From Galaxea fascicularis (Eukaryota; Cnidaria; Anthozoa; Scleractinia; Euphylliidae): a stretch of 64,000 nucleotides of DNA. The notes beneath the pieces are model-generated. The model ran no database searches. It was given only the letters and a program-made list of their open reading frames with translations, and was not told where the DNA came from. Where the stretch lies: NCBI GenBank assembly GCA_948470475.1, contig OX419335.1, positions 24,675,661 through 24,739,660 on the forward strand, given 5' to 3'. Both the position numbers and the translations under genes were made by a program. Positions 18,101-63,905 of the stretch are shown here, piece after piece (the stretch's first letter is position 1; every line of letters starts with the position of its first letter).

Positions 18101-21100
18101 TACTCGCTTTGTCACTCGTCCCAGACCTTCCACTAACTCGTCCAATATGGCGGCCGGATTTGCCTGGCTTCGAACTCTCGCGTATATACCGTCCGCAAGC
18201 AGGCTAAAAAACAGACAACCCGATTATTAAAACAAGATCTGTTTCTGCATCTCCAGAAATAACAACCCATTCTCCCATCTGAATTAACGATTATAGTTAA
18301 GGGGAACTAGTGATCCTATAGCACTATTACCTCAAACTGCTCCAAACCTTTCATAGAATCCCAATAAACATGTAAAATCTTGTGGATCGCAACTACTTTC
18401 CAGAAAATTAACTACAAATTTAGTTCTTCTTCACCGGTAACCACCATCTTGGAATACGTAATGATGTAGGGATTAGTGATTACGTTTTACGGCTCCCACT
18501 TAGCGATTTTCTCAAAATTGTCGTATTTACTCGGGCTACCTGTGGAAGGCCTAAATCTAAAAATGTCGTCCGTTCTTCTTCGTCGTTGTTTGCCACAAAC
18601 CTCAGATCTGGCGTATTTGCGCAGGTGCTGAAAAATAATATGGTAACAATAAAGCCTGGTTTCCATATGATTGTCCGGATCGTCCGGGTCGTCCCAGTCG
18701 TTTTTCAAAAATTTCGAGACGATCGGGACGACTGAAGATGCGCGGTCGTCAACTATTTTCCTGGGTCCGACAACAGAGTTTTGGCGCGATATTCGGAAAC
18801 GAAATGGCGGACATCAATCGCAGAGCGAGTCTCCTGGTTTGTTATCTTCTTATTCTTTCGATTTTGCGCTGTAGAAGAGCTCGAAGAATCCCACGAAGAC
18901 ACAGGTTTTGGGTATTGTTAATGCTTTCTGCCTCTTCGCCATGATTTGCATCATCTTCGCTTTCATCGAGACTCTTCACGTTTGTAACAGTGGATGGTCG
19001 TTGGTTGATGTGGTTTGACAACCAATCCAAATTAATGAATTCTGCTGGAGAGGGGACAGTATCGCGCCCAGAGCCAGATGGAACATACTTTTTTTTCTCA
19101 AGTATCGCCCATACGCGGTTCGGACATTCTTAATTTTTTTTTCTGCTTCAGCCGCGTCCAACCCGAATTTCTCTCTAATTGCTTTCCAGGTATTCATCCG
19201 TATAAACTTATTCTTATAGTGATTATTAATAATGGTAATGGTGTAAAATGCCCGTGAGAATGATGATATGCTAGTCGCTTGGCAACGGGCGAAAGGACAA
19301 CTGAAAAGAAATCAGAGTCCCAGGCAGGAATCGAACCCACCGGTCCGATGCTCTAACCATTGAGCTACAAGAACCCCTGGTAATCTAGGCTGTTTATCTA
19401 GGTTCTTATACAAAGTGTCCCACTGGTCTGCGGGCTCGACAATGTAAATGTGATTCAGACATGATAATGATTATTAATGATGGTAATGGTGTAATATGCC
19501 CGTGAGAATGATGATATGCTAGTCGCTTGGAACCTGAACCTAGATTGAACCTAGATAAACAGCCTAGCTCACCAGGGGTTCCTGTAGCTCAATGGTTAGA
19601 GCATCCGACCGGTGTTACGGAGGTTGTAGGTTCGATTCTTGCCTGGGTGTCTGATTTCTTTTCAGTTGTCCTTTTGCCCGTTGCCAAGCGACTAGCATAT
19701 CATTATTCTTATAGCCTTTAGAAAACTTGTTGTAAATTGCAGGATATTTTTGCACTTCTTCCATAAAGAGCGACGTGTTTAACTCCGTGTTTTCTGCCGC
19801 CATTTTGAAATGGAGCCCGTGAGCTAGGAAATGTGGGATAAGAGTGATGACTTCTGGGATAGCCTTCGATCGTCCAGTCCTTCGATCGTTGCAGTCATCT
19901 GAGAGCGTTTCCATATGATCGCTTCAAAATTTACACGATCGTCCCGATCGTCCGGATAGAACTCAATTCTATCCAAGCGATAAAGATCGTCTCAGTCGTC
20001 CGGGTCGTTTGCGATCGTCTGGGTAGCGTTTCCATATGATCGTCCCGATCGTCTGGACATTTTTTGAGACGACTGGGTTGATCCGGACGATCCGGACGAT
20101 CCGGACTATCATATGGAAACCAGGCTTAAAGCCGCCATGTTGGATTTGTAAGATGCCACGTCCCGGAGCCATGCATGGAAGCAGACGCACGTAACGTCTT
20201 TACTTTTATGACTATTATGATCATTATTTCATATATTTTGTATACTTCACGTAGTGGATTATCAGCTCTATCAGGTTTTCTATGTAGTGGATATCCATGC
20301 CAGTAACTCGCAATATTCCTCTTCATGCCATTAATCGATCATCGTATTTCGTTTTTGATGTGATAAAAGCCTCATCTTTCTCACAATCGTCTCATCATCC
20401 TTTGTTACGGAAATAAATTAAAGGTGCAATGTTCAAATAGAACCGGCCTAAAATAGAGATGAGAGCACGCCAGGTGATACAGTACATAGAGTAAAGAAAC
20501 ATATCAGTGAGTGTGTGGTCTTGCAAAAACCTTTTCTTCTCTGGATTCAGTAATAAATTAAAATTTAGAAGGGGAATATCTTCGATTCCAATGCAGAAAG
20601 TTACAGACTGCGACGCTTATGAGGTTCATTAGCCAAAGGTTGTTAGCAATCACAAAGACCTTCAGATCCCGCGGAAATAAAAGGAACACCGGAGCGAGCC
20701 GCACGTTTCTAAATTCACGAAATGAAAAAATGTTATTTCTAGTCTGGTTTATTCTGGAGAAAATTTATCTTGATATACAGATGACATGCGAGGGGAGTGT
20801 TATTGGGTGGTTGTTGTTGAGCCCGGCTTGCTGCTTGCTCTACTAAAATAAGCATAAAACCAGACGCAATTGGTTTCGTGATGCTTGCGTCTCATAACGT
20901 TGTAATATATAATGTGGCAAGCATCACCTTCACTTCCTTTCGAAAAGATACCGAAAAAAGGAATTAAAGCGACCTTTATAGGATGAGAAATAATAGGCTT
21001 AATAAAAACACCCCTCCCCTCCCTCCCAAAAAAAATATAGCCTCAAAAGAGGGGTTATGTTAGTTAGATAAACATGAGTATCACACAGAAAAAGTGTGAG

Positions 21101-21833
21101 ACAAATTTTTGGGACTGTATGAGCATAGCTTTGGTGTTTATTCAACACCAAAACGGTGTTTCTTTACACCAACACGGTGTAAATTCATAGGCTGAATTAT
21201 TAAGTAAAAAAAAAAAAAAAGAAAACAACAACAGCAACCAGTTACTAAAAAGACTGTATTTTATAACCCTAGCAAGAAAAAGCATTATTACCGGTTAATG
21301 GAAAAAACAATTATTTTCCTTGAAAAGAGAAATACTAAGTAAATGGTTAATTCGCCGAGAACCGTGATTTTCATTGTCTTTGTTCTCGTTTATTGTACTA
21401 AGACCGTTTTATCCGTGAAATCGTGATATAGACCCCCTCTCCCTTTTAACCACCCTCTGTTATCGTATGTTACATTCAATTTTCATGAACATCAATAGGG
21501 TGAACACGATTTGAATTCGTAGACTTTCCACAAATCAGCTGCTTGTACACTGTTAGACGGCTCGGGAGAAATTTTTTGGCCGGGATTTTGCATTTAGTAA
21601 GGACTGCCTTAATTATCACGCCGTTTCATTGAAACTATAGGTTGATACTGATAAAATATTTGACAACAAACAAGTTAATTATCTTGCGCCCTACTAAGCA
21701 GATACTATATGCCGTTATTGCGTTTTCAACTCCCGAAATTAGTTTGATTGTTGCTTTTTAATTTTATGCTCTCAGCGTGATACTAGCTAAATAGCATGTT
21801 AATCCCGGCATTCTGCACGCTCATTAAGACCCG

Positions 21834-21880
<47 letters not shown>

Positions 21881-24800
21881 TGACTTTGGAGCGACATTCG
21901 CGCGACAGCTGATTCAGACGGCATACCGTGTGTCGAACCTAATATGTATTTTATACATTCATACATTGTGACAATTAATGCATTTGGTTCGGCACATGAG
22001 AAGAGCGCCATATCAATCAGTTACCGCTCCATTGTCGAATAATGCGGCGGACCTTGTCGAACTTAACAACGTTCCTGCACCGAATTAAAACTGTCGTACC
22101 TAACTGATTCAGACGCTGCTCTTTTGCCGGACTTAATTTATTAGTTTGGTACTTCAGACCAAAAGTTTAAGAGGACAACATTTTAATAATCATGAAACAG
22201 ACGTGCTCGCTGAGTGGCAATTTTGCAAACTTACGTAGGCCAACTTAAGCTGTTGTGTCAAGTCAGTCTTTTTATTAAGGCCAATTGTTTAACTGCAAAA
22301 TGAGGATTTCTTGATTTCTTTGCCACCAAAACACCAAGTGGTGTAGCTAAAAACACTAGAAATAGCAACGCAGCTCCTCAACCCGGCATAGTTAAGAGGT
22401 CTTACCAAACTCCACGCAGTTGCTTGGTAGCCACAATTAAATCAATTGGCTCTTCATTATAAGTAGCATAAGTCAAACTACACATCGTAGAGAAAAAATT
22501 CTTTACTCAACTGAGATTGAAATACAACGCGACTATTTCCACCGCATGCGTAAACTTGGGTAATCTTGGGTCCAGTGCTGTTTCTGTTTCTATGTTACAT
22601 TGCATGAAGATCAATAGGGTGAACAGGATTTGAATTCGTGGACTTGCCACAACTCAGCTGCTTGTACACTGCTTTCCTGAACTCTTGCATTCTATGGCAT
22701 ATATCACAGGATTAACTATTGAACACGCGTAATATAGCGCATACACTGAATACTCAATAGGAAATTGTGTCGCTAAGGACAAGTCAAATGGAATAACAGC
22801 ATAAATGGCATACGGCAGAATGGTTACTACAGAAACGACAGTAACTATGAATTAAGGTAATGGACAGTTTTCTATCTGAAGCAACTGCTCCATCAGGGTG
22901 GGGAGAGGGGCTACTTTTGATTCTTACAATAATGATGACGTAAGACACTGTAAGAACAATTAATGATGCCCATAAGTAATAAGAACTACCTGATTGGATA
23001 TACAAAAATAAGACGTCATGCACAGATGCTAAAAGTAATACATGGAATGCCTGTACATACTTGTACTTTCGCATGTTATAACGTGAATGTCTTATCAACA
23101 CAAGCAATGTCGAATTAAAATGCACTTGAAAAATACGATGTATTAGAGGAGGTAATGCAATTTTCTGTGCCGTGATGATCAACATGATACCTTAATGCCG
23201 AAATAAAATAAAGAAAGTAATTTCGATCTCGTTTTGCCAAGTTTGTCTATTAGAACGGCAACCGTGTTGAGATGTGCACGTGATTGCCACTTGGGTCCAG
23301 ACGGCCTGAGCCTACTAGAAAACTGAGCGTGATTTATCAGTGTTGCATGTCGAATCACTGCGGCAGTGATTCGACATGCAACAAAGTTATATGTCGTTTA
23401 ACAGTACGATTTATTATTGCTGGCATTTATTATACTGATATTTGACTGTCACGCTGAGATGCATACGGTAAATACTGAAAGCAATTCTCAGGGTACCTGT
23501 GTGCTATTAGAAATATCCATTCAAAACTTTTTACAGTATTTCCAAGGAGTACATGCAACTGATGACATTTATGAACTCAAAGGATTGCATGTTATTTAAT
23601 ATGACATAAATGAACTTGTGAGCAATGGCAGTGTAGTAGCATATTATAATTTCCGAACATCCATTTGCGGCCACTTCAGTGGAAGCCCGAGTGAGGGTCA
23701 ATATGGTCTCTCGTTCTTCTTGTGAGACAAGCCGAAGTGTAGCACATACAGTTGTTATTACACCATAAAAAGCAAGAATAATCCTAGTACAAGTGTACAT
23801 AATTTTCCAAAAGATGATAACTAAAATAAATATAACCCCTTTGCAGTTTACGATCACATGGTACAAAAAAAACACCTTACTGGAGAGCAAATAGCCCACT
23901 GGGAAAGCCGAAACAAAATAATATTTAGTTAAGTTGCTTTGTTTTGGATGTCCCAGGACTCAATTTGCTCTCCAGCAAAGGACGGTTAGCTTGGCACGAT
24001 GTGTCAAAGTACGCTTTAATATGACCGTCGAAGAATTGTCAGAGAAGTTACTTTAAAATTGTCGCGCGGGGACAAGTGATTCGCGCGCAATGTCTCCGCA
24101 GCTGGGTGGGTTACCAATTTCAAGCAGAGATCATGTTAGGAAATAAAGTGAATGGAAAAGTCTGCCAAGGAACGAGGATTAGAGCTATTCAAAGTGTAAT
24201 TTCTTTCATGTTCTTTGCCAGGCTTGACAGGATTAGCAATAATCTACTGCATGGATCTTCTTGAAAACCTCGACTTTACAGTGCGCGAGAGCCTGGAAGT
24301 GGAAAACATGATGACGTCAGTGGAGCGAGTGTTTTCGTATTCAAATCTTGAATCTGAACCAGGATACCGCGACCAAAACGAACCTCTGAAAGACTGGCCG
24401 GGAGAGGGTCGCATTCAAACGAACAATTTGCGTCTAGTTTACTACAGCGGTGGACCTGAAGCACTAAAAGATATCAACATTTCAGTGGCTCCTGCAGAGA
24501 AAATCGGCATTGCAGGCCGAACGGGCGCTGGTACGTAAATAATGTTAGACTTTACTCCAAGCTGAAATCACCAAAATTTCATGTTAGCTTTGCTTGACTG
24601 ATTTGTTCGCCCCTCCAAGTTATTTTAGCCTTGCTACGGGCCTGAACATTTTTCACTAGTAATATAACTCTCTCACGATTATTCCAATTCTTTTATCATG
24701 TAAATTGTGGGCGGCATATGTAAGCACCAAAATTGATGTAGAGAGCGTGAAAGTAAAGAAAAGAAAGAAAAACTCACCGTCATGAGCTAATTTTCTTTAT

Positions 24801-26184
24801 AAAATCTTGTAATTGGTCATTTTACGTTGTTAGTTGCAGCTGCACATAAAAAATCTGAAAAAAAAATCCAAATCGCTCATGCACAGCGATTGCTTTCACT
24901 CAATAACACAATTTTTTTCGTGGCGTTCTCGTTACGTTGCTACCGTCGATCGATGCAAAAAGGGGCATTGGATATTGGAAGATATTGGAAGTAAAGAAAA
25001 CCGAAAAATAATGGTTCAGTTTTGTTTAAAATTATTTTATCGGTTTGGCAAAACGACAAATGAGCATCTTTGGGGTAGGAATGGATTGTAACTTGACTAT
25101 TACAAGTTCCTACTAACTGAGCTGCGGAGATTTTGTTTTGCCTCCCTTGTGAGAAAACACCTTGAAATACTTTCTTTTGGTCTTCCAATTCTACGCAATT
25201 GTACTTGAGAGTGCTTGGTTTCAATTTGAGCTCGAAAACATACAAATCACAATGACAGAGTCCCTTTAAGCTCTCTCGACATGAAACCGGCGACCATGAT
25301 AAAGAGGAATTAACAACAACAAAAATGCAGCGAGACCCACCTATCAAAAACAGTTGATGACTAAAAGTTAAAGTTGCAAGTCGCGCTTCAGTATTTCGGC
25401 TAATATAGTCGACTGCACAGCACAAGACTTTTGTGACCTTTCTATTTTGGCTTGTTAAATGGAGAAAAGGTTAATCTGATGAAGGTTAAGAAAAACACGA
25501 ATACAAAGCAAAAACAAGGGAAAGAATGAAACAAACATGATCTCGAGGCGCCTGAAAGTTTACCTTTTTTCTCTTGCAGGGAAATCATCATTTGTCGCTG
25601 CAGTAATGCGCATGCCTGAACCAACAGGCCAGGTTCTCATTGATGGCCAAAACATACAACAGCTTTCACTACCGAGTTACCGCTCCAAGATCTCTGTTAT
25701 ACCGCAGGATCCTGTACTATTTAGCGGCCCGTTGCGTTTCAACCTGGATCCTGGAAGCGAGTTTCAAGATGCCCAAATCTGGAACGCCTTAGAAGCAGTG
25801 CAACTGAAGTCACTGGTTCAAAAACAAGACAACAAATTGCACTACGAGATCTCTGAAGGAGGTTCGAACTTCAGCGTGGGCGAGAAACAGCTTCTGTGCC
25901 TCGCTAGAGCGCTTTTGCAAGAAAACAGGATCATTATTCTGGATGAAGCCACTGCTAATGTTGACTTCGCCACAGACAAACTGATACAGGAGACAATTCG
26001 CACCAAGTTTAAAAACTGCACTGTAATCACGATCGCTCACCGCGTCGACACAATTTTAGATTATGACCGTATTCTGGTTGTTGATGGGGGTAAGGTGGTA
26101 GAGTTTGACACGCCTGAATGGCTTCTGAGAAACGCGGCTGGAAAATTTGCAGAATTATACCGGCTTCAACATCCCGCCACCTAA
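12188..26184 (+). CDS. ABCC-type (MRP4-like) ABC transporter, seven exons
   Basis: Exons read as 12188-12736, 13317-13696, 14031-15284, 15991-16561, 17375-17511, 24222-24530 and 25580-26184. Phases agree throughout and give about 1267 residues, close to the length of short MRPs. There is no TMD0. The N-terminus (FSLLTFAWLNDLLKQG, KRPLENDDLPPLL) matches the MRP4 start, which supports the ATG at 12188. TMD1 is in exons 1-3. NBD1 has Walker A GPVGSGKTS, signature LSGGQRVRVS and Walker B IFLLDDP, with the non-catalytic Asp usual in ABCC NBD1. TMD2 is in exons 4-6. NBD2 has Walker A GRTGAGKSS split by the last intron, FSVGEKQLLCLARALL and IIILDEATANVD. The expected role is ATP-driven export of organic anions or glutathione conjugates across a membrane. 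One extra base near 14596 breaks the frame just before the NBD1 Q-loop. The most similar family is ABCC4; orthology is not proven. Confidence 0.9.
14590..14605 (+). other. Single-base frameshift inside the ABCC NBD1 exon
   Basis: Upstream of 14597 the domain reads in one frame (GELSIYNGNVDRTLKTGF). From 14597 the family sequence continues in another frame as VGQLPWIFSGTLRDNI, the Q-loop. Exon length arithmetic agrees: 1254 bases are observed, while the flanking phases require a length of 2 modulo 3, such as 1253. Left alone, the frame ends at a stop at 14650-14652. It is either a sequencing or assembly error or an inactivating mutation. Confidence 0.75.
17991..18206. repeat. Foldback MITE in ABCC intron 5
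   Basis: Termini TAGCCTGCTTGC and GCAAGCAGGCTA. The inverted arms extend inward through CGCGAGAGTCCGAAGCC / GGCTTCGAACTCTCGCG and then GTCGCCATATTGGACGAGTT / AACTCGTCCAATATGGCGG, around a CT-rich loop. About 216 bp, with no coding content. Confidence 0.75.
18842..19803 (-). pseudogene. MADF (Myb/SANT-like) DNA-binding protein gene of the Harbinger element, broken
   Basis: The likely start at 19803 begins MAAENTELNTSLFMEEVQ, the start of a MADF domain. It is interrupted by the SINE insertion at 19220-19702. When the insertion and one copy of its target repeat are ignored, the frame continues as NTWKAIREKFGLDAAEAEKK and IKNVRTAYGRYLRKK. A second break sits at a run of eight A (minus strand, near 19090). 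After it the family-like sequence VPSGSGRDTVPSPAEF and an acidic tail run in another frame to a stop at 18842. MADF proteins bind DNA, and in this transposon family the protein would recruit the transposase to the ends. Not functional as read. Confidence 0.65.
19208..19714. mobile_element. Inverted pair of tRNA-derived SINEs with 12-bp target duplication
   Basis: The insertion (19220-19702) is flanked by TTATTCTTATAG at 19208-19219 and 19703-19714. It holds two SINE units head to head. A plus-strand tRNA-like head at about 19576-19650 has an A box like TAGCTCAATGGTTAGAGCA and a B box like GGTTCGATTCT. A minus-strand head at about 19322-19382 has the same boxes. Each is followed by the same tail (GTCCTTTTGCCCGTTGCCAA, CGACTAGCATATCAT). 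It splits the MADF gene of the surrounding element, so it inserted later. Confidence 0.7.
20130..21340. other. Intronic sequence with no recognised gene
   Basis: AT-rich intron sequence between the Harbinger element and the receptor remnants. Around 21130-21185 there are short direct ACACCAAAACGGTGT-type inverted motifs, and a poly-A run lies near 21210. No exon was recognised. Confidence 0.5.
21350..21465 (-). repeat. CACGAAA-type repeat, truncated copy
   Basis: Reverse-complement match to the left part of the repeat at 27640-27860, sharing GGGAGGGGGTCTA, the AAAACGGTC motif and the AAAGACAATGAAA segment. One end has been lost. Confidence 0.5.
21480..21560 (-). pseudogene. C-terminal scrap of a rhodopsin-family receptor (copy 2)
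   Basis: On the minus strand it encodes VYKQLICGKSTNSNRVHPID, nearly identical to the tail of the receptor remnant at 22620-23185. The differences keep the reading frame, so both derive from one duplicated gene. Nothing upstream of the tail remains recognisable here. Confidence 0.55.
21836..22150. repeat. Degenerate inverted-repeat element with CCGAACCTAA motifs
   Basis: The motifs TTCAGACGCCGCTCC and GTGCCGAACCTAA at the left are echoed at the right by TTCAGACGCTGCTC and related words, with TGTCGAACCTAA and GGTTCGGCACATGAG in between. The limits are uncertain. Confidence 0.35.
22620..23185 (-). pseudogene. Rhodopsin-family (class A) GPCR remnant, frameshifted
   Basis: Read on the minus strand. 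A hydrophobic segment SLIVLTVSYVIIIVRI (TM5-like) is followed by a basic loop ending DRKLSITL, a TM6-like VTILPYAIYAVIP and a TM7-like YALYYACSIVNPVIYA with the NPxxY motif. A tail RMQEFRKAVYKQL then CGKSTNSNPVHPID ends at about 22620. Two single-base shifts are visible: one between ITL and the TM6 segment, and one directly after NPVIYA. Upstream helices are not cleanly readable. Such receptors sense small ligands or peptides at the cell surface, but this copy cannot make an intact protein. It lies antisense within ABCC intron 5. Confidence 0.6.
23341..23383. repeat. Perfect 21-bp inverted repeat with one-base loop
   Basis: The arm TGTTGCATGTCGAATCACTG (plus one C) is exactly mirrored by GCAGTGATTCGACATGCAAC (plus one A), with only one base between. 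In RNA it would form a 21-bp hairpin or cruciform. No known element was recognised around it. Confidence 0.8.
23531..23899 (-). pseudogene. Hydrophobic reading frame, possibly a further receptor remnant
   Basis: Open for 122 codons on the minus strand, with membrane-like stretches (GVIFILVIIFWKIMYTC, IILAFYGVITTVC). It sits just upstream, in the same orientation, of the GPCR remnant. No diagnostic motif such as DRY is present, so it may equally be a chance frame. Confidence 0.25.
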
Positions 26185-51300: not shown

Positions 51301-51852
51301 TACCGTCGTTTTCATCTAAGCGTGGACACGTGACAAACATGACATACTTGGTAACGAAAACATTTGAAGTTTGAAGGATGTTCAAGCATGTTTTACCAAT
51401 ATGGCAGAGAGGATAGATAGCGAATACTTCTTCGAGGAAATTGATCCAGACCTGTTAAAGTATGCTTCCGCTTCTCTAAATGTGGGTTCTCATCAAGTGT
51501 AATAATGAAGTATTGGCGTGAACACGATTTCCAAAACTTAGAAGTGGTATACCTGTGTACAGTTGAACGGTTTATACGATACCTTTCACATGTTTCACTT
51601 ATTGGACCCGTAGCCGCCATCTGAATCACCTCATTTCTGAAATCCTTGGACAAAGGAATACCTGGTCGAAGTTTCGGCCGTATTTGTTTATCGAAGACAT
51701 ATCAACAGATTCGAAAACTTTCAAATTTTGGCACAAAAGTTTGCTTAACGGCTGTAAAACTTCAAATGTTTGGTTACCAAGTAGGTCGTGTTTGCACCCA
51801 ATTAGAACATGTTTTCCTGTCACGTGTCCACGCTTAGATGAAAACGACGGTA
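51301..51852. mobile_element. Tc1/mariner-pogo-like transposon remnant with perfect 34-bp TIRs
   Basis: TACCGTCGTTTTCATCTAAG at 51301 continues for 34 bases and is exactly mirrored at 51819-51852. TA at each extremity fits a TA target duplication. The 552-bp element keeps part of a helix-turn-helix reading frame on the minus strand (51393-51653). No DDE catalytic domain is left, so it is non-autonomous. Confidence 0.75.
51393..51653 (-). pseudogene. Truncated transposase N-terminus with helix-turn-helix
   Basis: The frame starts MSKDFRNEVIQMAAT and contains GPISETCERYRINRSTVHRY, a helix-turn-helix of the Psq/homeodomain-like kind found at the start of pogo-type transposases. After about residue 40 the sequence is unlike any transposase, and the DDE domain is missing. 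The element that contains it supplies its only context. Confidence 0.5.
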
Positions 51853-52330
51853 TAAGCATTCTGCTATTATAAGAATAAATTCTATACTTTTCAAAGCTGC
51901 TTGTTTAAGAAAACCTCTTGGTAAGCTTCCCTTTTCCCGCTCTTTAGCACATGTTGAACGTATGATTCGAACTTCAGAATCAAATAGCCCTAACTGAAAT
52001 AATTTGGCCAAAGGTTTACCAGAATGATTACTGTGGTTATTTTATACTAAAAAAAGATCAAGATCTTACAAAATAACGCTGGAGATACTCCACAGCTTGC
52101 GGTCTCAACTGTAGATCTGTTTAGCTTGACTTTCAGAGTTGGAGGTGGAGTCCATGACTGTGAAAAGAGGGATAAATGCAAGACAATTCGTGTCAGTTTT
52201 GTTCGCTATTCTCGCAAGAAGAAACACCAATCAAACAAAGCAGAAGGGGTAGAATGTTGATTGTCCCCGTCTCAGATGAGGTCTTACAAGGAAATTTCTC
52301 AAGATTTCCAATCTCTCCAGGCGTTTTTAC

Positions 52331-53164
52331 CTTGTCCACGTTTGTGCAGTGGTGTAAACTTGTTTAACATATCGAGTGAACTAATTCTCTTGTAAATGCA
52401 TCTGAACGGAAACTCAGCAAAAGAACGCTTATTGCCGGCACCAATCTCGGCCACGACTTTGTTCTGGAATGTAACTCGGTCGTCCTCCGTTCTGAAATGA
52501 TAAAAGTATAAAGATCACCAAGTTTTACCGATATGTCCAATATTTTTTTATCCCAGAATTGGCAACACACCCCCTTAAAATATCATTATCTGTTTTGCTT
52601 CGTATTTTACCACATCTTTTATGCAAACAGCCTTGGCTAAGCACCCCCTGCCCAAGGAAATTACTGTGACATTACTCTAACGAGCAATGCAAATGGCGAT
52701 TTTACATAATACTCATTGCTTGACATGCTAGATAATTGTACAGTATGGTTGACAATGACATCAAAGTGACTAACAACTGAATTCATGCTTTGCAACCAAG
52801 TTTCTCCAGTCATCACTTAAGAGTACACTCTATTTCACAAATAAATTCTATATGTTGCCGTGCGCGCGTCTATTTGATAAAAGATGGTGGTAGGAACAAA
52901 AAAGGGGCACGCGGGGCGATAGCCTAGTATGTCACTGTTGAAAATGGAACTGGCGTAATAAGATGATCGTATACCTGCGGATGGTTCCACAGCTGTTCAG
53001 CGGAGCGGTCAGCGTGACGTCACTGGTATTCACCAGTTCCACTCCACAGCGTGGGTCATCAAGACGCAGCAGGCTGGGATTTACCAAAGCAGGCAGACTT
53101 TTCCGCCGAATGTGTATCTGCATTTCAGTGGGTAAACACAGGATGACGAACCCATAATCGGATT
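52331..53164 (-). CDS. ZP domain exons (N-terminal two thirds), partial
   Basis: Exon 53164-52975 encodes DYGFVILCLPTEMQIHIRRK, then SLLRLDDPRCGVEL and APLNSCGTIRR, the ZP-N core with its cysteines. Exon 52491-52331 continues TEDDRVTFQNKVVAEIGAG and FAEFPFRCIYKRISSLDM, the end of ZP-N and the linker. The exons join in phase 2 across CGC AG/A. The following ZP-C part (its cysteine pairs, cleavage site and membrane anchor) was not recognised. A possible next exon near 52164 after TTTTCACAG leads to a stop within about 17 codons. Thus the domain may be truncated, or the last exons may be too diverged to see. Confidence 0.7.
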
Positions 53165-56100
53165 CTGACAATGCAAAATAAGAATGCTCTTAGGAACATT
53201 TTTTAAAGACTACTCTGTAAAAGGAGAGTAGAATTTATATTCTGAAAATGAAGTACTCTTGGCAGAGGTGACCTGACAACACGCGCGCAATAATTTGTAC
53301 CGAGTGTCATGTCTCACGTCATGTCTGCGGACTGCGTACGATTTCACGCCAAAAGTTTTCCCAAAGAAATGCTTTCTGCCTATTCCGAATATACCATATT
53401 CTGATCATTCTCACGCGAGCAGAATATTTTTTCCGCTCATTTCGAAAACGGGATTTCAGAAAAGGTATTTTGAGTATTCCTGTTCACGAATGATCCCAAG
53501 CCCTGAGGTAAGGGACGGTGCGATTGGTGTTTCGATAAAGGACTGCGAGTTCTGCTTTTCAACCAGTCAAAAGCTTTACCGTGGAAGACTCGTAAATTTC
53601 ATTTTCTCCAGGAACAGTCACTTTTTGCTTTGTCCCTAGTCTTAAATCAAGGGTTTCATTTTGCATGACGGGGGTTGTTAATTTCCTTCCTTGATTGTTA
53701 CAGCTGGCCATCAACAAAAGTCCAAGCACAAGACAAGACAAATATCATCATTATTCACAGAACCGAGATCCTTGTACAGTGTCCACCCTTACGCCTGAGA
53801 GGCATCAAGGAGCACAAAGGGCGTCCAATAATGTTTTTTTAGATGCGCAGAGTTGTATCAGTAGATATATCCTGCAGGTCAACTTACAAAAGGAGAAAGG
53901 ACTCACCGGTTGGGACTGGCGGCGTTGTTGTTTTCACTGGAGTCGTGGTTGGCGGTGGCGTTGTAGCTGCTGAGGTAGAATATAGTATTCACTAAGTGGT
54001 TTATTTCTATCAAACGGAAGGTAAAATACCGGTGTTCTTGTTATCACAGGAGATCAAAAATCTTCCAATCAACCGTGACTATACCTAGTCAACAAGCATG
54101 TTATCACATCGCCCCTATGTGGACATTGGGATACTTATGATGTCTGTTCGTTATCAAAAGGCAGCTGTGAAAATAAGTATTCTTTTCTTAGTTCACTTTT
54201 TTTTTTAGAATTTGCGCCCTGGATGCCCTGAATACGTACTGACTGCTGTCAAACTCTAGCAAAGTACTAGAGTGTGGTCACAACAAACGTTTTTGCATAA
54301 CATCGGTGAGGCGCAACCTACACTCTTTGGGTTCAGAAATAGCGATTAGATAAATACAGTAATCTCCTAATAATTTACTTCCAAAAGGATTAGGCAGTTG
54401 ATTAACTGATTTAGAAAACATTTGAACAAAGCTAAACCTCTGCAGTCGCTACAAATCTGAATTTGCCGCACCTTCTGTGTTGTCCTCAGTGCAAATCACT
54501 AATTCAAGTCTTGTTCGATTGTGTGAGAAAGAATTTGGCCTTACCTGTGTCTTTTCCAACTCCGCAATAACGCAACTTGCACACGGGAGCATTCTGCAGC
54601 TTGTAGACGTAAAAATCACCACATTTTCGAACCAGTATTCTTCTGCGCCACCTACAGTTATTACCGCCCCAGTAAAAGCAGACTGTCCTCGATACGGCTC
54701 CATCGCGTACACTGGGATGGGCCCCTCGCAGCCAGCCTGGAGCGAGAGTACCACAACGATAAGCAGGAACACTATTGTTTGGCATGCGGTCTCCCGCCAA
54801 ACCGGTAAATCGGTACCAGTCTCTAGGTAGCCATCGATCACAGGTCGGTTTGGCACCTTTCACTGATCGGTACTGATAATTTTGAGATCTCTCGCCATCG
54901 CTTAATACTCTGTATGAGGAGCATTCTGTTCATGAGTGAAAAAAACCAGCAAAACAGAATCAATCAACCGAGAACTGACGAAAAGATGAAGTTTTGGTGC
55001 TCACGGTTGGCGGGAAAATAATAACCTGTATTTTGCCATCGAGGATATGACAGGAAAGTTGTGGGTAGCATCCTCTGTTCTTACAACATGCTACACCACT
55101 GAAAAAAAATTGAACAAAACAAGAAACAACAGAAAAATGACTCAGCCCCGAAAACGATGACTGCCCCAAAATGTTAAAGCCAACGAAGTTAGTAGGTCTC
55201 GAGAGGTGCTGCATTACGCAGGGCAGCTCCTTTAACTATCACTGTGTTCTACTCTATTTCGTCTGTCAAAGTACAATGAAAACACGTATTTGTCATAGAT
55301 TAATGTGAAGGAATACGGTATACCTATGGGCTTGGCAAGTGTTGTGGGAGCGCTGGCTGCTGTTGTATGTGGCGTTGTCAACACTGGTACTGAAAGAGAC
55401 AGCAATGCACTTTTTCGTTCAACTGAATATTCACTAACATGTCTAGAACATAGTGCTTGCGTTTTCCAACGCGATGCATTTATTGTTTAGCGGGAGCAGT
55501 TTGTGACATCACAAATGTCACACTATCGGAATGTCACAAATTTCATGGCTTATCTGCGATTCCAATTCCAGTTCAAACGCTTGGGCAACAGTTTATTAGA
55601 AATACATTTACTTCAATTTCAAGATACGCCTTTGTCTTTATTAGGGCTCCGAGTCTAAACGCGCGACGCGTAATCATACAGCAAGGCGATTCGGAGAAAA
55701 AAAATCAACAACAAAAGAAAGTAATTTCAGGTGACCACCATCTAAAACTGCTGCATACACCAGAGCTACCTGAGCTACAACGAGTTGCAAAAATACTTGA
55801 GACCCTGTATGTCATTTGGCCTAAAATGATGTTTCCATGATCTTCCGCTTCCCTTCCCCCTCCCCTCTTATCAAAGTTGCCAGCAGTGCAATTAGCGCGC
55901 AACACCATGCTCGAAACTTGGACGAACAACCTTGAAGGGGGAGAGGGAGGGGCCGTGTTGTACCTCACAGATTTCTTAGCAGCAACGATTTTCACAAAGA
56001 AAATCTATTTGTTTAATATAGAAAATGTCTCAACAATTTTGCAACTGGTACCTCACCTAAGCGTTTATTCCCGCAATAGCGGAGACTGCAGTATCGAGTT

Positions 56101-59100
56101 GGATGCAATTCGTAAACGAAGAATGTTCCACAGTTACGAACCCTGATCTCCATGGACCAATAACAGCAGTTAGATCCCCAGTGAAAACAGACCCGCGTAT
56201 TAATAATCCCAGCTGCCACCGAGGGGTGACTGCTATTTAACCATCCAGGTGCATGCGCACCACAGCGTAGCTTGGCCACACAAAAGTCAGGCATTTGGTT
56301 TCCGGCTTCTCCATTGAACCGATACCAGCCTTTTGACAGTTTTTTGTCGCAGAGCGCTCGGCGGTACTTGGCTGAATACCCTTCTGCTCTGTTCGCCTTA
56401 GTTAACGACTTGTAGTTAAAGCATTCTGGACAACATGTCAAATTCGTACAGCACGTTTGCCACAACGAGTAGAAAAAAACAGAAGAAAGACCAAATTTTA
56501 AACCAGAAAAAAAGACGATTGACGCAAGTCCCATAAATCGACTTGCAGATAAAACAATATGTCAACCTATTCTTATACCCCTAGATATTTAGCTCTGTGT
56601 GTCGTTACAAGTTTGTGGGAGCGGTTTCAGAGCTACCTAAACTTTTATAGAAAAAAAAATAAGCTGGCTCTAAATCCAATATTACACAATTTTGATTTTT
56701 AGTTTGCTCATTATTTTTAGGCAATCAAAAATGCGAGTCGCCGAGATCGTTTTGAATTATTGTCACTTAGAGCTAAAATTAGGATGTTTCTTGTGGGGTA
56801 TACGTATTGACTTGAAGTGTTTCTTGTATACCACTCGGTATAAAAGTAAAGATTGGTAAAACAAATCCATCAAAGTAAAGGTGTGAGCCACCTTAATTTT
56901 TTCTCTGACAGTTTGCCTTTGTAAGGCAGTAATGCCATCTTAAAATCAACCTCGGTTTATAATCATTATACCCCAAAAAGCTTTCTCGTATTTTTAAGCC
57001 CACTACCCCTCTCTCCCCAACAATGCCCATCCAGAAAATTATATAATAAGAATTTAGCTGGAATTTAATGACGGTAACAACCTGACGGTTTGGTTGTCGT
57101 TTCACTGGTTGGCGCCGTTTTCGTGCTTTCTGAAATAAAACGGTATAATTAGAGACGTTTGTTTAGCACTCAAGAGTTCGGAATGAACCGAACGGATATT
57201 CATTTTCAACTATTTGCGCAAGAATTAATGGTTTGGTTGAGCTTCATCAAAAATGAGATGATTGTTTTCACCTGGTGAGCTAGAAGTTGTCTCAATAAGT
57301 GTTGTTGCTGTTTTAGTTTCTGAAAGAAAAGAGCTACAGAATGAATTTCCTTTGTAACATGAGGAATATCCTGATATGATATCCTCCTCCCCTGTCGAGC
57401 CACCTACCAGAGCTCGAGAGGAATATACTAAATATCCTCGAGGGATAGGGCAATAATGATACTTGTTTTCCATTCCAGTCGGGAAGTTTCCTAATGCAAA
57501 AACGGTAATTACACTCGTGAGCCATATTTTACATTTTTTGAAGTTCCTGTACTAACACGTCATCCCGTATGGCCTCGGGGGCATTTACGCTGGCCGAATT
57601 ACAAACCTTGGTTTCAGTTTGCTGTAAATATGCGCCCCACTTTTTGTAGAAAAAATATTAAATTTAGTACAATAATTTCTGAAAAATGAAAATTACTTTC
57701 ACGATATAATAGTGGTCGGCTAAAGCTGGAGGACCTCGAGGTGAAAACATCCAAGCCTGACGGAATAAGTCTAATGAATTAAAAAGATGCGTTTTAACCA
57801 TTTTTAGAGTCAGCCCCCTCCCCTGAGTTGAAGAGTCGAGAGCAGTCCCCGCACTTTAAAAATTGCTCCGCGGGCCCTGTTATGGAGGGGTTAAAAGGAC
57901 ATCAAGGCCATAACGAGACGTGATACGTTGCCGGCCTATCTGCTGATTTACATTAAGACATGATTCTCTTTTAGTTCTGTTGAAGGGGAAATTTCCCACA
58001 AAATTGAACAATATGTTTGTACCCCTTACTGTATAGTAACCCGGAAATCAGACCTAAATGGGTTACCATAACAGCCTTCTGATTCCTTTGCAAACCACGA
58101 GTTAATATCAATCGACCGTTTTCACTTGACAATTATCAGAAATAACAAGTTAAAACTATGAAAACCAAAAGAAAAAACATAGCCTTCTTAACTTAATATA
58201 AATAAATTCACCATCGTCAGTAAAGACCTCCTTACCTAGTTTAGTTGTTGCGACGGTGATTTTGACAGGCGAGGTTGTCACTGTTTCTATAACAACGAGA
58301 TAAAAAAAAAAGCAATTAAAACTGATATCTGCGCATAAAAATTAAGGCTGGGAATGGAAATTAAACAATCCCTTTGCAGATAGTTGAGAGCGCAAGCCAA
58401 CAGCGTGGGGAGACTGGCAAAACCCTGGCTGAAGATCTGAGGGAACGGGGGGAAAGGGGGAGTCTGGGAGGGAGCGGAATTCGAGGAAGGAGTGGAAGAA
58501 TAGAGTGGGGCAGCAATCTCATGGGTCAGTGCTTTCTACTTGGTAAACCTGAGGGTTGGAACGGACAGTTTTCAACAGGGATGCTATTTTAAAGGACTGT
58601 TTCTGCTCCATTCCTAGCGTTAAAGAAGGTCACGTGATCTCGGAAAAACTGGTGGATGAGCAGTGTTTCAAATTGGCGCATCGCTTAAGGATACATCCAA
58701 TTTCTGTAAATGCCAAATAGAGTATGACGAAACTTTTACATTAATTAAAATTAAGGCAGGTACGTAGTTGTGCTTCCTTTCCCACCTTAAGTATATAATT
58801 GCCAACACATTAAGGGGCGGGGCTAAGCAAGTGATAGATTCACCTTTTAATCTTTTATTTCCACATCAAAAGCAATAAAATTGTTTGCCCCCCCCCCCCC
58901 TCTTCCCCTCACCAATTTTCGCACAAACTGTTGTTTTCATTCAGCCTTTGGGAGCATGCAGTTCATAGAGGGGCTTGGGAGCGAAGGGGGAAGTGCAAAA
59001 ACGTATCTGCTGACTCAGTGACCCACAAGTGGCGAGTTAAAATACTGCCGGTTTTGCTGACATTCATGTACAATCGCTCTACCTTGACCATTTCCACAAT

Positions 59101-62100
59101 AGCGCAGATTGCAAGAAGGTGTTGGAGAAAGCTCGTACACAACGAAATCACCACAGTTACGCACTAGAACAGCATTGCGCCAAGAACAGCAACTTTTCCA
59201 GCGAAAGCAAACTTGTCGTCTTACAACCCCTTCTTGCACTGCGGGGTGGCCCCCATTTAGCCAGCCTGGCGCATGCGCACCACAGTGGTGTGTAGAGACA
59301 CAAGTGGTAGGCATCATGTTACCACTATCGCCTGAGAACCTGTACCAACCATGTGGCAATTTATCATCACACGAAGAAACTGACTCGTTGAAGTTTACAG
59401 ACCTTCTGATAGAGTCCAACGTTACGTATGTTTGACATTCTGTAAGCAATGGCAATGTACTTCATTACCCTAGCTACCTCGACGAATAAATGAAAAGCAA
59501 AAACCCGTTGGGCATTAAAACACTTTTAAAAGAGGTTTTCTGGGAAAAGTAAAGAGTAAAGCAACTAGATTGTTCATTGTTCCTAGTTAATGACCAAATT
59601 ACAGTATCTTGACAATATTTGTTGTGAATACCCTGAATACGTTACGACACTGAATACCGCTCTTCTGAATGTCAATTTCAAGCTGTCTTTTATTGGGTAT
59701 GAAATACTCGTATTTGAAACCTTGTGCCATCCATATATAATTATCTCACTAACCTGAGTAGACGCTATCATACCTGATGGAATAGATGATGGCTCATTTG
59801 TTTTATTAAAAGGCGTTGTTACCTCTGCAATGTAAAAAAAAATGATTATCTCTAAGTACCTTACACCGTCCACGTTTTTTGTTGGCCTATGAATTCAGTA
59901 GTTTGGTAAATGCATACATGTCTCAAGTTAAAATCGATATTTCATTTTATTTGATATTATTTTTGGACAGAATCTTCGTTGGTATATTACTGACCGTAGG
60001 CATTATTTGCATCGATCAGTATATATCACCTGTAGTAAGACAACATTCTGACACTGATTTATGTACCTTACCTGATGACATTCTTGTTGGTTCTATCACT
60101 GGTAGTGGTGTTGTTAACTCTGGGAGTCAAAATTAAACAAACAAATAAGCAAATTAACAAATCAATCAACTAATAAATCAATAAACCAATCAAGCAAGCA
60201 AACAAGAGAATGATGATGAGGATGGTGCGGATGACGGCGCCAATGATAATGGTAAAGATGATAATGGTGAGCTGGTGATGGTGATGACATTACCAATGCA
60301 AGTGCTAATGTCAATGCTAATGTCAATGCTAATGTCAATGCTAATGCCAATGGCAATGCCAATACCAATGTCAATGTCAGTGCTAATGCCGGAAGTAATG
60401 CCAATACCAATAGTAATGACCGCATCAATGACAAGCCAGTGGCAAGGGCAATACCAACGCTGGTGCTAATCACATATGAATGGCAACGGCAACTACAGTT
60501 CTGGGGATCCTCACAGATGGTAATAATCAATTGCCAGATAAGGTATGTTTAATGTAGATACTTACGCGAGGATATGATTTCGAATACTAAGTTCTCTCCG
60601 CGGCCTCCCAAACCACTCTGACAACCACTTGAATTACCGTCTTTGATTATAAGAGCTAGCAGCAGTTTTTCCACTCCTGCACTGTCCAAACGACTGTATT
60701 CCAAAATAAGTGTAGTCTTTGTCTCTCGCGAGTTGAGCGCACTTCCTGATAACCTTTTCCAAATCATACCAGTCTACCTCGCCAGATAAATCTGCCAACA
60801 GTTCGGGAAAAGGTCGGGGATCGACTTGACCGTCTTTGTAGCATCCTACGGTTCTATATCTGACCTGATGCTGATCTGTATGGCAAGAGGATGTGATAAC
60901 TGTTATTACTTGACTAAAATTGAAATGTGACAAGTCCAAAATAGCGCACGACAAGAAGGAACAGGAGCAATTACCGCCCATCAAGGACGTGTGACTTGCC
61001 AGCATTGTGGCGTCCTTGGGGCAAAACCTCTGGGTTTATACAGTTTTTTGTTCTTAGTTGTCCAATGAAGAAAGGTCATGGAATGTTTGGGGGATGGTTC
61101 ATCGAAAGTTAGTTCTAAAAGTGTGAGTTGGTGGCTGACAGCTTAGCGCAGGTCTTCATTATCATCCAAGGAAGTTATTTTAACGAATCTCTTGAAAGTT
61201 ATTTCTTTTATTTAAGAACTACCCTCTACGAGGCCCTGGTATCAATTTTGCGGTTGTTAAAGAGGTTGACTCGGCAAATGAAGCTAACCACTTGACTCGC
61301 TCATACTAAACGTCACAATATTTATTGACGTCATCTTCAAACAGACATACCTTGCTGTAGTGCGTCATCGAGTTCTTCAAGATCTGTCAACATCGCTTGA
61401 GCCTCTAGCATAGAGCGTGCAAAAATAAAAGATATAATTTAAGGACATCCTCTTAGGCTGCTGTCTCTTTAGTTCAAACATTAAAATTAATAAGTGACTT
61501 TAGCGAGCAGTAACAATCTTTTTTCTCTGTATTTTAATCTACAATGACTGCATAGTAATCTTGAAATGCCGATAACGCTACCGGAACAGAACGGGAACCA
61601 CAAACGTCCTGGCAAATATCGTGATTGGTTTAGTTTAGTTTAGAAACCTGCACGGCTGTTAATTTGATTGGTTCAACAAAAACACACTACTCGTTCGATC
61701 AGGTAAGAGATAACCTGGCAGAGGTCAGTCAAATGCAATGTCTCGTTTTGACGTCACTTTGTTTTAAGCGATACCACTGGATAGCCGAACGATCTCTATT
61801 TCATATTAGCGCTACTCAGGCGATAAACTGTAATGACGTTTTAAAGTAGTTGGGAATGAAACAAATTGCGAACACTGCCGGCGGCCATTATTAAGCGGTC
61901 AAAGGTAAATCTCTCTAACTGATCATAATGTTGTTTATATTTACCTTCTCCATTAGTGGTCAGGTCTACGTCTTCATCTGTTGATATCCAACGGCTCATG
62001 GTCTTCCATTCTGAGCCGCCTAATTAGAACATGCGAAAAAAGAAAGTCAGTTGAGTATGTGTTGAGAAATGACCGACACCATTACAGGGCAAAGAGTACA

Positions 62101-63905
62101 CGTGAGGTATATCTATGAACACTTTTGGCACCGTTAATTTTTTATGGTCTGGTTAGGTTTGATGGCTATCTCCTTTAATCTCTAATGACCCCCTTCCTCA
62201 TTAGATATTTTTCGCAGTCCTCAATATTGGGAATTACCCCCTCCCCCCCAAAAAAAACAAAAAAACAACAACAACAACAAGGAAGAAAAACTGATAAAGA
62301 GAAACCAAACGTTATCAAGCTGAACTTCGTTTGATGTGTTTGAATTTTGGAACGAAACATTTGGCGAGGTAAGGTTGCCACTGCGTATATAATAAAGTAG
62401 GGAGGACCGGAGGCATGCTCCTCCGGGGAAAATTGAATTTTTAGAGCCTTAGAGCGCTATATTTTAGCATCCTGGCAGGATGTTTGCATTATTACAGATG
62501 CCGTCAGTACCAGATTTGAAGGCAAATCAAGTTTTTGGCGACCCTCCCCCCTTCCCTTTACACACCATATTTTATCGGCTGCCCCCTCCCCCGTGCAGTT
62601 TAATGCTATATCTTTTAGCATGGGCCTCTCAAATCCCACCTGTTCTCTCCACGAATAACAAATGAATGGTCCCAAAAAAGAGAAAGAAATAGATACGAAA
62701 CCTGCAGACGCTTGAGAAGTGTTGCGGTAACGTTAACAAGTTTTGCAAGCAAAAGGGGAGTCAAAAGCCCTTACAAGAAAGTCAATATCTTATTTCATTT
62801 CGTAACAACTTCGTAACAACGAAAGTTGTAACGCAGTCGAAACGATTCCAGCAACGATTTACAACGGTTCAGCTAATTAAACTTATGTTTTTAATTTTAT
62901 ACTGAACTCAAGGCTGTTTCGATAAAACCTTGGGTGAAACAGTTCTTGGATGAAAAAATTGCAGCAAAAAAGCGTGCATCTCGTGGACATAAAACTATTG
63001 CCTGCAAAATGACGTCTTTATTGATGAATAAAGCTATTGTTTTTAGCAATGACGAAGCGAAAACAGTGTAGGAAAGAATTAACTGCGTGATTGGAACTAA
63101 TTGAAATTGAAGTGATAGTATACAATCAGTTGAAATTATAACCTCACCATTTTGCCATTGAGCTTCCTCGTTGCTTTCGTTGTCAGTTGCTTGCCTACTT
63201 TCAGTTGCTGTTTCTTCTAACATGTCAGTAATGTCTAAGAAAAAAACGTTTCAGCATAACTTGAGCATGACAGTTATAGCTATCAAGTAGAAAAAAGCCC
63301 CAACGAAAGCACTGTTTGTTAAACCGGCTCAGGAAGGAAGAGCACCTTGTAAGTCCCGAAGAAGTTGAGTATCCTCTGTAGAATGTTTGGACAAAGCGGC
63401 ATATCTCAGGTCGTCTGTCTCTGGAAATGCAACAATGGAGGAACGTTTATGCTACGACTATCAGCATAAATTTACCACACAGTTGTTAAGTTCCTACTGG
63501 AGTTTATCACAAGAAACAACTGAGTCTGAAAGTTTGACTGTGTTGTGCGTTGAAAGGTATAGTAGTATGGATTATAAAGATAACACGTATTCTGTTAATC
63601 TTTTTCTACAAACAAAATATATGGAGCTTTGCGTATCCCAATTGAGTGAGTGTTTCCTTTTATCTGACATACATTTTCCTCCACTAATCCAAAATATTTC
63701 CCAAGTCCAGTTTTTTAGTGAACACTTTCGTTAAGATTTCTCATTTTTCGCAAGTTGCAATCAGGGACCCACTCTTCAAGAGATCGAGTAGCAAATGGCT
63801 GATATGACTGAATAGAGAGCCGTGACGAATATTTCAAATAACTACCTTCTTGAAGCTTAAAGAAGTCATTGCCCTCTTGTAATGTTCTGCTGCCATGGCT
63901 GTTTG
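52331..63905 (-). CDS. Modular secreted/surface protein: linkers, WSC/PAN-like, three D8C and a ZP domain (5' end open)
   Basis: Exons, 5' to 3': 63905-63846, 63420-63346, 63234-63148, 62019-61945, 61404-61351, 60875-60566, 60119-60072, 59824-59774, 59439-59083, 58286-58236, 57319-57272, 57129-57082, 56425-56057, 55389-55324, 54925-54545, 53969-53907, 53164-52975 and 52491-52331. Every intron is phase 1 except the one inside ZP. Thr/Ser/Pro-rich linkers of 16-22 residues separate the folded domains. D8C plus ZP is the combination seen in uromodulin, GP2 and OIT3, where ZP drives filament assembly. Here there are three D8C copies plus another cysteine domain, so a polymerising mucus or surface-coat role is plausible. 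The first exon, signal peptide and the C-terminal part of ZP with any anchor were not found. It could instead be more than one gene: the D8C-B frame alone extends upstream to a Met with a hydrophobic stretch. Confidence 0.7.
54545..54925 (-). CDS. D8C domain exon C of the D8C-ZP gene
   Basis: A phase 1-1 exon of 127 codons with ECSSYRVLSDGE, DWYRFTGLAGDRMPN, YRCGTLAPGWLRGAHP, SRTVCFYWGGNNCRW, LVRKCGDFYVYKL and CKLRYCGVGKDT. Two framework cysteines are changed: the MPxxC position reads MPNNS, and the usual CC pair is NC. One disulphide may therefore be missing compared with copies A and B. Confidence 0.8.
55745..55965 (+). repeat. Interspersed repeat B, copy 2
   Basis: Near-collinear match to 8041-8260: CTACAACGAGTTGCAAAAA, a C/T-rich tract, AACACCATGCTCGAAACTT and a GGGGGAGAGGGAGG tract, followed by the tail TCTCAACAATTTTGCAACTG near 56028-56047. 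It lies in the intron between D8C exon B and the linker exon at 55389-55324, and the tail abuts D8C exon B. Confidence 0.65.
56057..56425 (-). CDS. D8C domain exon B of the D8C-ZP gene
   Basis: A phase 1-1 exon of 123 codons with ECFNYKSL, GWYRFNGEAGNQMPDFC, RCGAHAPGWLNSSHP, INTRVCFHWGSNCCYW, RVRNCGTFFVYEL and CSLRYCGNKRLG. The frame stays open upstream to a Met at 56534 with a hydrophobic stretch (GLASIVFFSGLKFGLSSVFF) that could act as a signal peptide. This leaves open an alternative promoter or a separate short gene beginning here. Confidence 0.8.
59083..59439 (-). CDS. D8C domain exon A of the D8C-ZP gene
   Basis: A single phase 1-1 exon of 119 codons. It starts ECQTYVTL and contains GWYRFSGDSGNMMPTTC, HHCGAHAPGWLNGGHP, RRQVCFRWKSCCSW, LVRNCGDFVVYEL and CNLRYCGNGQ. 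All framework cysteines are present. The donor CAAG/GTAGAG was chosen over one a few bases earlier because it gives a normal consensus; both are phase 1. Confidence 0.8.
60140..60440 (+). repeat. Minisatellite and simple repeats
   Basis: CAATCAA-like repeats (60140-60205) pass into GATGATG, then into a 12-bp unit AATGTCAATGCT repeated with variants from about 60296 to 60420. The open frames here (all Leu/Ala or all Met/Ser) are repeat translations. It lies in the intron after the WSC/PAN-like exon. Confidence 0.85.
60566..60875 (-). CDS. WSC/PAN-like cysteine-rich domain exon with one-base frameshift
   Basis: The domain begins RYRTVGCYKDGQVDPRPFPE, continues with CAQLARDKDYTYFGIQSFGQ and C, and resumes after a frame change as DGNSSGCQSGLGGRGENLVF. 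The pattern (GCYKD, kCA..A...Y.yFGiQ..GqC, sgC) resembles WSC or apple/PAN-like carbohydrate-binding domains common in cnidarian extracellular proteins. The exon is 310 bases, and removing one base gives 309, exactly the phase 1-1 length. The extra base lies near 60650, just after SSYNQ. Confidence 0.6.
61351..63905 (-). CDS. Five acidic linker exons of the D8C-ZP gene
   Basis: Exons at 63905-63846 (ANSHGSRTLQEGNDFFKLQE), 63420-63346 (DDLRYAALSKHSTEDTQLL), 63234-63148 (ITDMLEETATESRQATDNES), 62019-61945 (GSEWKTMSRWISTDEDVDL) and 61404-61351 (AQAMLTDLEELDDALQQ). All start and end in phase 1 with good splice sites. They are rich in Asp, Glu, Thr and Ser and contain no cysteine. Each could be skipped without changing frame. 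No known domain, so each exon call is weaker than the cysteine-rich domains. Confidence 0.5.

Follow-up and report, generated by a model that had tools for sequence, protein, structure and literature searches.

What kind of protein is encoded by a chain of cysteine-rich exons that leads into a ZP sequence in a stony coral, and could this protein build filaments? The chain lies on the minus strand of a 64,000-nucleotide stretch of Galaxea fascicularis DNA (contig OX419335.1, positions 24,675,661 to 24,739,660), which is called here the window and gives the positions used below; the contig has 44.6 Mb and the genome 416.6 Mb. On balance we favour the view that this stony-coral locus encodes a uromodulin relative, probably secreted, whose lone ZP-N would dock on, or cap, the filaments of related proteins. 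The description of the gene and of its domains is held with high confidence, a secreted role at the surface or in mucus is likely, and the capping step, which is inferred, is tentative.

The chain consists of 18 exons with AG/GT borders, running from 63905 to 52331, and a 19th exon that closes the reading frame with a stop at 52105. Phase-1 splice sites are found on both sides of 16 of the 19 coding exons in the window, and the length is divisible by three in 15 of these 16, the exception being the WSC-like exon. All the other 18 exons are open, and the chain is in a single frame except at the WSC-like exon. Glu is the split codon at ten of the 16 listed phase-1 junctions. The linkers between the domains (n = 7) have 50-80% Thr/Ser/Pro, while none of 139 open segments from the same introns reaches 50%, and the region N-terminal to the WSC-like domain is acidic (26% Asp+Glu). 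The 5' end of the gene is outside the window, where the adjoining 7.5 kb (64001-71500) reads N; the orthologue P0010 starts with a hydrophobic stretch resembling a signal peptide. An earlier reading of the window, made from the letters alone (the sequence-only reading), had the coordinates right for the exons that it saw, but it missed the last exon (52105..52157) and the gene starts beyond its reach. The locus is thus described, very probably correctly, as one gene whose exons code for three D8C domains, one WSC-like domain, the linkers and the ZP part:

63846..63905, minus strand: N-terminal acidic-region exon (NSHGSRTLQEGNDFFKLQE), phase 1-1, AG/GT borders and open junction
63346..63420, minus strand: acidic-region exon (TDDLRYAALSKHSTEDTQLLRDLQ), phase 1-1, weak donor gtgctc
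63148..63234, minus strand: acidic-region exon (ITDMLEETATES...), phase 1-1
61945..62019, minus strand: acidic-region exon, phase 1-1
61351..61404, minus strand: acidic-region exon, phase 1-1
60566..60875, minus strand: WSC-like domain exon, phase-1 sites at both ends, 310 nucleotides (1 mod 3)
60072..60119, minus strand: Thr/Pro/Ser linker exon, phase 1-1
59774..59824, minus strand: Thr/Pro/Ser linker exon, phase 1-1
59083..59439, minus strand: D8C-1 exon, whole domain, 10 Cys, phase 1-1, PF23283 E 1.3e-18
58236..58286, minus strand: Thr/Pro/Ser linker exon, phase 1-1
57272..57319, minus strand: Thr/Pro/Ser linker exon, phase 1-1
57082..57129, minus strand: Thr/Pro/Ser linker exon, phase 1-1
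56057..56425, minus strand: D8C-2 exon, whole domain, 10 Cys, phase 1-1, PF23283 E 1.8e-19
55324..55389, minus strand: Thr/Pro/Ser linker exon, phase 1-1
54545..54925, minus strand: D8C-3 exon, whole domain, 8 Cys, phase 1-1, PF23283 E 6.1e-17
53907..53969, minus strand: Thr/Pro/Ser linker exon, phase 1-1
52975..53164, minus strand: ZP-N exon 1, phase 1-2, PF23344 E 9.4e-9
52331..52491, minus strand: ZP-N exon 2 (fourth ZP-N Cys, FPFRCIYKR), phase 2-1, 63% identical to P0007 531-584, E 1.9e-15
52105..52157, minus strand: last coding exon (VMDSTSNSESQAKQIYS stop), without ZP-C or membrane anchor

The weakest exon of the chain is 63846..63905, for which no orthologue match was seen. Stylophora P0005 57-85 aligns to exon 63346..63420 (E 0.029), and exon 63148..63234 is alike, by eye, to the LLRDLDDVTSMLEN stretch of Acropora P0010. 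The phases would permit frame-neutral exon skipping.

The best matches of the gene are stony-coral proteins, and it aligns colinearly with proteins of Oculina, Stylophora, Montipora and Acropora. Oculina patagonica LOC144642401 (P0001), P0005, P0007 and P0010, which are annotated only as 'uncharacterized', have the same order of WSC-like domain, D8C array, lone ZP-N and short tail, also without ZP-C, and differ in the number of D8C domains (4, 3, 2 and 2, respectively, vs 3 in the window gene). The shared order in P0001 and the colinear orthologues bear out the proposal of the sequence-only reading that several D8C, a WSC-like module and a ZP sequence on phase 1-1 exons make up one gene. D8C-1 is 74% identical to Oculina P0001 211-333, D8C-2 is 65% identical to P0001 555-691 and 70% to Montipora P0007, and D8C-3 is 72% identical to P0001 710-833 and 73% to P0007. 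A tree of 37 rows was built from the domains of ten chosen proteins (at least 85 profile positions), six domains of the window and its neighbourhood and one of GP2. Each window D8C clusters in it, with starred support, with the same-position D8C of other corals; D8C-1 clusters with the same-position domains of three other proteins, including those of Oculina and Stylophora, and the Montipora and Acropora gene models have no D8C-1 counterpart. Because the D8C group by position, the domain order should be older than the split of these coral lineages, and on the same grouping a freely expanding array at the window gene was rejected. The comparison among corals that had been suggested was run, and the number of D8C varies from 1 to 4 between the gene models of the species: Oculina 4, Stylophora 3, Montipora foliosa 2, Acropora muricata 2 and Acropora cervicornis 1, the last in a gene model (P0040) that has also no ZP-N. 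Two or more D8C are found in 83 of 147 retrieved relatives, among the matches listed and with queries that favoured such proteins.

The ZP part of the gene is a ZP-N, as indicated by the Pfam profile and by the ZP-N fold in the structure model of P0007. All four of its cysteines are retained in the window gene as well as in the relatives. The six scanned relatives with a ZP-N match the whole length of the profile (1-101 of 101), and none of them has a PF00100 match at E<=1. Searched by sequence against the PDB, the spliced ZP-N gave weak matches only, to TGF-beta receptor type 3 (E 0.011) and choriogenin H (E 0.97). None of the 54 PF00100 matches in the genome falls in the window, and six C-terminal ZP probes gave a best E of 0.81 across the surrounding 144 kb, which include 17.5 kb of N; the same probes recover the gene on contig C9, described below, at E down to 1e-93. 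The protein ends 17 residues past the ZP-N exons with the tail VMDST..., and among the tails of eight relatives of the same kind MDST is present in four (P0001, P0007, P0010 and P0092), LDST or MHST in two, and nothing similar in P0005 and P0008. No hydrophobic segment was found in the ZP-N or tail of the window gene (hydropathy peak 0.62). An HKR motif, which is absent from P0007 and P0010, follows the ZP-N.

The missing anchor agrees with the relatives. Among the matches listed, and with classes taken from precomputed annotation, a C-terminal hydrophobic segment is missing in all eight retrieved proteins with D8C and ZP-N but no ZP-C (peak 0.39-1.56) and present in all 23 with D8C, ZP-N and ZP-C (peak 1.83-3.19). 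These 31 proteins are related, include isoforms and two models of one Stylophora contig, and are not independent events; one of them, P0092, is marked as low quality. The comparison omits six ZP-C proteins without a precomputed ZP-N, whose tails, by eye, are transmembrane-like in five cases and truncated in one. Among the elements of a ZP-module protein, the gene has the ZP-N and appears to lack the ZP-C and a C-terminal cleavage site followed by a membrane or glycosylphosphatidylinositol (GPI) anchor, and its predicted architecture is that of ZP-N-only (PLAC1-like) proteins, which does not imply descent from PLAC1. The 'ZP domain' of the sequence-only reading is therefore real as a ZP sequence, and it is a lone ZP-N with neither ZP-C nor membrane anchor found.

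D8C-1, D8C-2 and D8C-3 score 62.0, 70.2 and 67.4 bits with PF23283, all above the curated cut-off of 27, and the closest solved structures by sequence are those of GP2 (7p6r, E 3.8e-28 for D8C-2) and uromodulin. The structure model of P0007 has a mean predicted local distance difference test score of 46.5 and is usable for the ZP-N and, less well, the WSC-like part, so the D8C assignment rests on sequence. The ten-cysteine domain (D10C) of GP2 is held by the bonds C1-C8, C2-C9, C3-C6, C4-C10 and C5-C7, and C2 is among the uromodulin (UMOD) cysteines mutated in kidney disease (PMC8930769). Judged by positions only, the ten-cysteine pattern is complete in D8C-1 and D8C-2, and D8C-3 has eight cysteines, without exactly C3 and C6, which are kept in its counterpart in the orthologues shown. 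The loss of cysteines was followed in 313 distinct near-full domains, obtained from 377 domain hits in 147 proteins and six typed domains of the window and its neighbourhood after dropping partial and duplicate domains. C3 and C6 are absent jointly in 31 domains and singly in none, C5 and C7 jointly in three and singly in none, and C2 and C9 jointly in 18 and singly in 12; the domains come from related proteins and isoforms and are not independent, so the p-values of co-loss are overstated. C4 and C8 are present throughout and C10 is missing once, which puts C1-C8 and C4-C10 outside the reach of this test. Off the pattern, loss of C1 accompanies that of C9 (p 4.7e-5) and C2 (p 0.001), neither of which is its partner, and many of the C1 losses fall in gaps where the alignment begins. 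The co-loss agrees with three of the five human D10C bonds (C2-C9, C3-C6 and C5-C7). Because bonded pairs are lost together and D8C-3 lacks exactly C3 and C6, the disulfides of the coral D8C are probably paired as in the human domain, with D8C-3 as a probable eight-cysteine variant and not a random ruin.

Each window D8C has one N-glycan sequon (NES, NSS and NNS), and that of D8C-2 (NSS) is at the position of UMOD N232 by alignment. The FimH-binding positions UMOD N275 and GP2 N65 have no sequon in any of the three, and therefore the known FimH decoy chemistry is not matched here. A GP2-N65-type sequon is present in 44 of the 313 domains of the family, including two sampled domains of the neighbouring plus-strand group described below, and absent from the plus-strand domain at -22944. 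D8C domains were also observed in bacterial proteins (P0064, P0069 and P0135, from Nannocystaceae, Myxococcota), which raises a possible transfer between animals and bacteria; P0064 and P0069 have D8C without C3 and C6.

The 85-residue piece scanned from the WSC-like exon scores 25.7 bits with PF01822, below the cut-off of 27.8, and the orthologues P0001, P0003, P0005, P0007 and P0010 score 22.0-25.2 bits, all below it as well; for this reason the domain is called WSC-like. Among the proteins scanned only Nematostella P0011 passes (31.5 bits). A later profile version, in precomputed annotation, assigns WSC to P0001 and P0040, and residues 7-112 of P0007 take what may be a WSC-type fold in the predicted structure, in a part less well modelled than the ZP-N. 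PAN, which had been offered together with WSC for this exon, was rejected, as Pfam at E<=1 gives only WSC for the piece scanned; the profile check thus upheld the D8C and reduced the other cysteine-rich module to a sub-threshold WSC-like domain. The 310-nucleotide exon contains a stop, with a frameshift near 60641-60646, and, of seven proteins compared by tblastn, the matches of all six orthologues listed, P0003 being the seventh, split into two frames within it. The frame is open in the Oculina, Stylophora, Montipora and Acropora counterparts (P0001, P0005, P0007 and P0010). Either a real lesion or an assembly error may lie behind the frameshift; if it is real, the phase-1 borders would permit in-frame skipping of the exon, or else the product would be truncated.

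The same genome has at least 115 D8C matches. On contig C9, at 18025614-18049405, nine tandem units of about 2.87 kb with two D8C exons each make 18 D8C, and the self-match shifted by one unit is 99.0% identical across 21 kb. This would be a recently amplified D8C array, unless it is inflated by the assembly. A ZP module follows within about 3 kb downstream (PF00100 at 18052595 and 18053288, and a membrane-segment match), and because of this pairing a candidate filament partner is available in the same genome. The expandable array of the sequence-only reading is thus real at C9, while the D8C of the window gene, to which it had been ascribed, are conserved by position. Next to the window gene, plus-strand D8C exons are seen at window 44-487 and 2104-3080, in a group that runs left to about -24400. 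It has six D8C hits from -24356 to -13846, one of them interrupted by an N run, a ZP-N-like match at -12693, and past this two further D8C, the last apparently split by an intron. With the hits from 24.61 Mb of C1 and the window gene, the D8C cluster covers about 123 kb.

Several known proteins share parts of this architecture. Human uromodulin and GP2 have a D8C/D10C domain with compatible cysteine pairing and a ZP-N fold, and differ from the coral protein by a single D10C, EGF domain(s), ZP-N together with ZP-C, and FimH-binding sequons. We know of no D8C or WSC domain in PLAC1, Oosp1-3, Papillote and CG16798. These are ZP-N-only proteins, which have, like the coral gene, a ZP-N without ZP-C (PMC1479692). 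Zebrafish omcin5, which has five D10C plus ZP, is like the coral gene in joining several D10C to a ZP sequence, but it has an EGF IV domain, a ZP module and a predicted GPI anchor, and WSC goes unmentioned in the sections covered (PMC11415648). This protein and shark P0097, in which 11 D8C are scored, contradict the view that vertebrate D8C-ZP proteins carry a single D8C. The omcin5 paralogues are clustered, vary in D10C number and are expressed in the urinary and digestive tracts, and omc5 mutants are prone to infection, with poorer survival in the presence of bacteria (PMC11415648), which speaks for a defence role among relatives of the coral protein. Nematostella LOC5519385 (P0011) is like the coral gene in having WSC and D8C, there four, whereas a SUEL lectin terminus replaces the ZP-N and its own D8C group together.

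The combination of D8C and WSC, thought possibly undescribed, is not new as sequence, since both are in the precomputed annotation of P0001, P0011, P0032, P0040, P0085 and P0087, although the WSC of P0001 is below the cut-off in our own profile scan; no paper describing it was found in the literature covered. The listed papers on the D8C domain concern, by title, vertebrate UMOD, GP2, OIT3 or kidney disease, and no description of the coral family was found for D8C/D10C in cnidarians in a literature that takes in few subscription papers and preprints. In Nematostella a 'uromodulin' is induced in the ectoderm of wounds (PMC4229989), and in Caribbean Acropora the levels of two 'uromodulin' transcripts are higher at the base of the colony (PMC4320547); membership of the former in the subfamily, and identity of the latter with the window gene, are not implied. 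The feature noted by the sequence-only reading is real, and its interpretation holds in part. The gene seems to encode a known kind of protein in a new, uncharacterised variant, with a D8C array, a lone ZP-N and a WSC-like head.

The product would begin with a signal peptide, which is outside the window and suggested by the start of P0010, followed by the acidic region, the WSC-like domain, three D8C/D10C separated by mucin-like Thr/Ser/Pro linkers, the ZP-N and the short tail, as expected for a secreted glycoprotein. Its D8C and WSC-like domains may bind glycans or microbes at the epithelial surface, and the lone ZP-N may dock, most likely at the ends, on filaments that the coral makes from its own anchored D8C-ZP proteins. 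In this way the D8C/WSC array would come to sit on the filament as its terminal subunit, and growth would stop because the docked protein presents no ZP-C to the next subunit. That the gene encodes a usual filament former, as first proposed, is not supported: it has a ZP-N without ZP-C, and both are essential in UMOD filaments by cryo-EM. The same paper leaves the role of isolated ZP-N open and puts forward, as a suggestion, the capping of growing filaments by proteins that have only a ZP-N (PMC7737619). Extended further, and rather doubtfully, the conserved secreted coral protein would be an end regulator or decorator, a dedicated terminator of an antimicrobial surface polymer made by anchored multi-D8C ZP proteins. 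The soluble D8C and ZP-N-only proteins beside anchored D8C, ZP-N and ZP-C proteins in corals would be a natural pair for probing capping. The D8C counts suggest that a coral has many times over the uromodulin-type toolkit, the place of which would be the surface at which hosts meet symbionts and pathogens.

Several points weigh against docking and capping. Capping is, for the authors who suggested it, a possibility that requires experiments (PMC7737619), and the isolated ZP-N of mammalian ZP3, fused to maltose-binding protein, assembles into filaments in vitro (PMC1479692). The type with D8C and no ZP part beyond the ZP-N is documented in only four named genera, and this type rests on few species because a protein search with P0010 440-613 matched five proteins, none of them new. 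To these are added the broken frame of the WSC-like exon, the empty FimH-binding positions and, in the 31-protein comparison, the relatedness of the proteins, the isoforms, the doubly modelled Stylophora contig, the low-quality member and the capped lists of candidates. If ZP-N units stacked without ZP-C, the product could assemble by itself, with its D8C arrays as a bacteria-trapping mesh like that of uromodulin or omcin5. The ZP3 filaments and the infection-prone omcin5 mutants agree with this, as do two consecutive ZP-N-like segments that P0003 and P0005 show, by eye, close to the C-terminus, where Pfam scores one stretch each; with no ZP-C found in the gene, we consider self-assembly clearly unlikely.

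A soluble glycan decoy or opsonin, which would bind microbes in mucus through its D8C and WSC-like domains and keep the ZP-N for dimerisation or as a relic, is unlikely. The missing anchor, the Thr/Ser/Pro linkers, the sequon in each D8C, the homology to the decoy domain of GP2 and UMOD and the N65-type sequons elsewhere in the family speak for it, but no window D8C has a sequon at either FimH-binding position, and a complete ZP-N with four kept cysteines is unexpected for a relic. Decay of the locus to a pseudogene in this species, for which the stop in the WSC-like exon and the loss of C3 and C6 from D8C-3 could be taken, is improbable: the other 18 exons are open with AG/GT borders, the lost cysteines are bonded partners that are lost together in 31 of the 31 domains without either, which points to a tolerated change, and the frameshift may be an assembly error or be removed by skipping. 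Highly improbable is a row of short single-D8C genes, an idea that draws on the evidence being genomic DNA and on the D8C exons of the neighbouring plus strand. It was rejected on the colinear orthologues, whose public gene models hold the same order in one protein, and the exon chain itself stays in one frame outside the WSC-like exon.

Other features of the window were noted by eye. A short tandem repeat of AATGCT/AATGTC type is present at 60270-60420, in the intron after the WSC-like exon, and a minus-strand open reading frame at 51396-51701, just downstream of the gene stop, has a likeness to a transposase helix-turn-helix. The plus-strand exons at 12173-26181 resemble, from their open reading frames, an ABC transporter of the ABCC4/MRP type.

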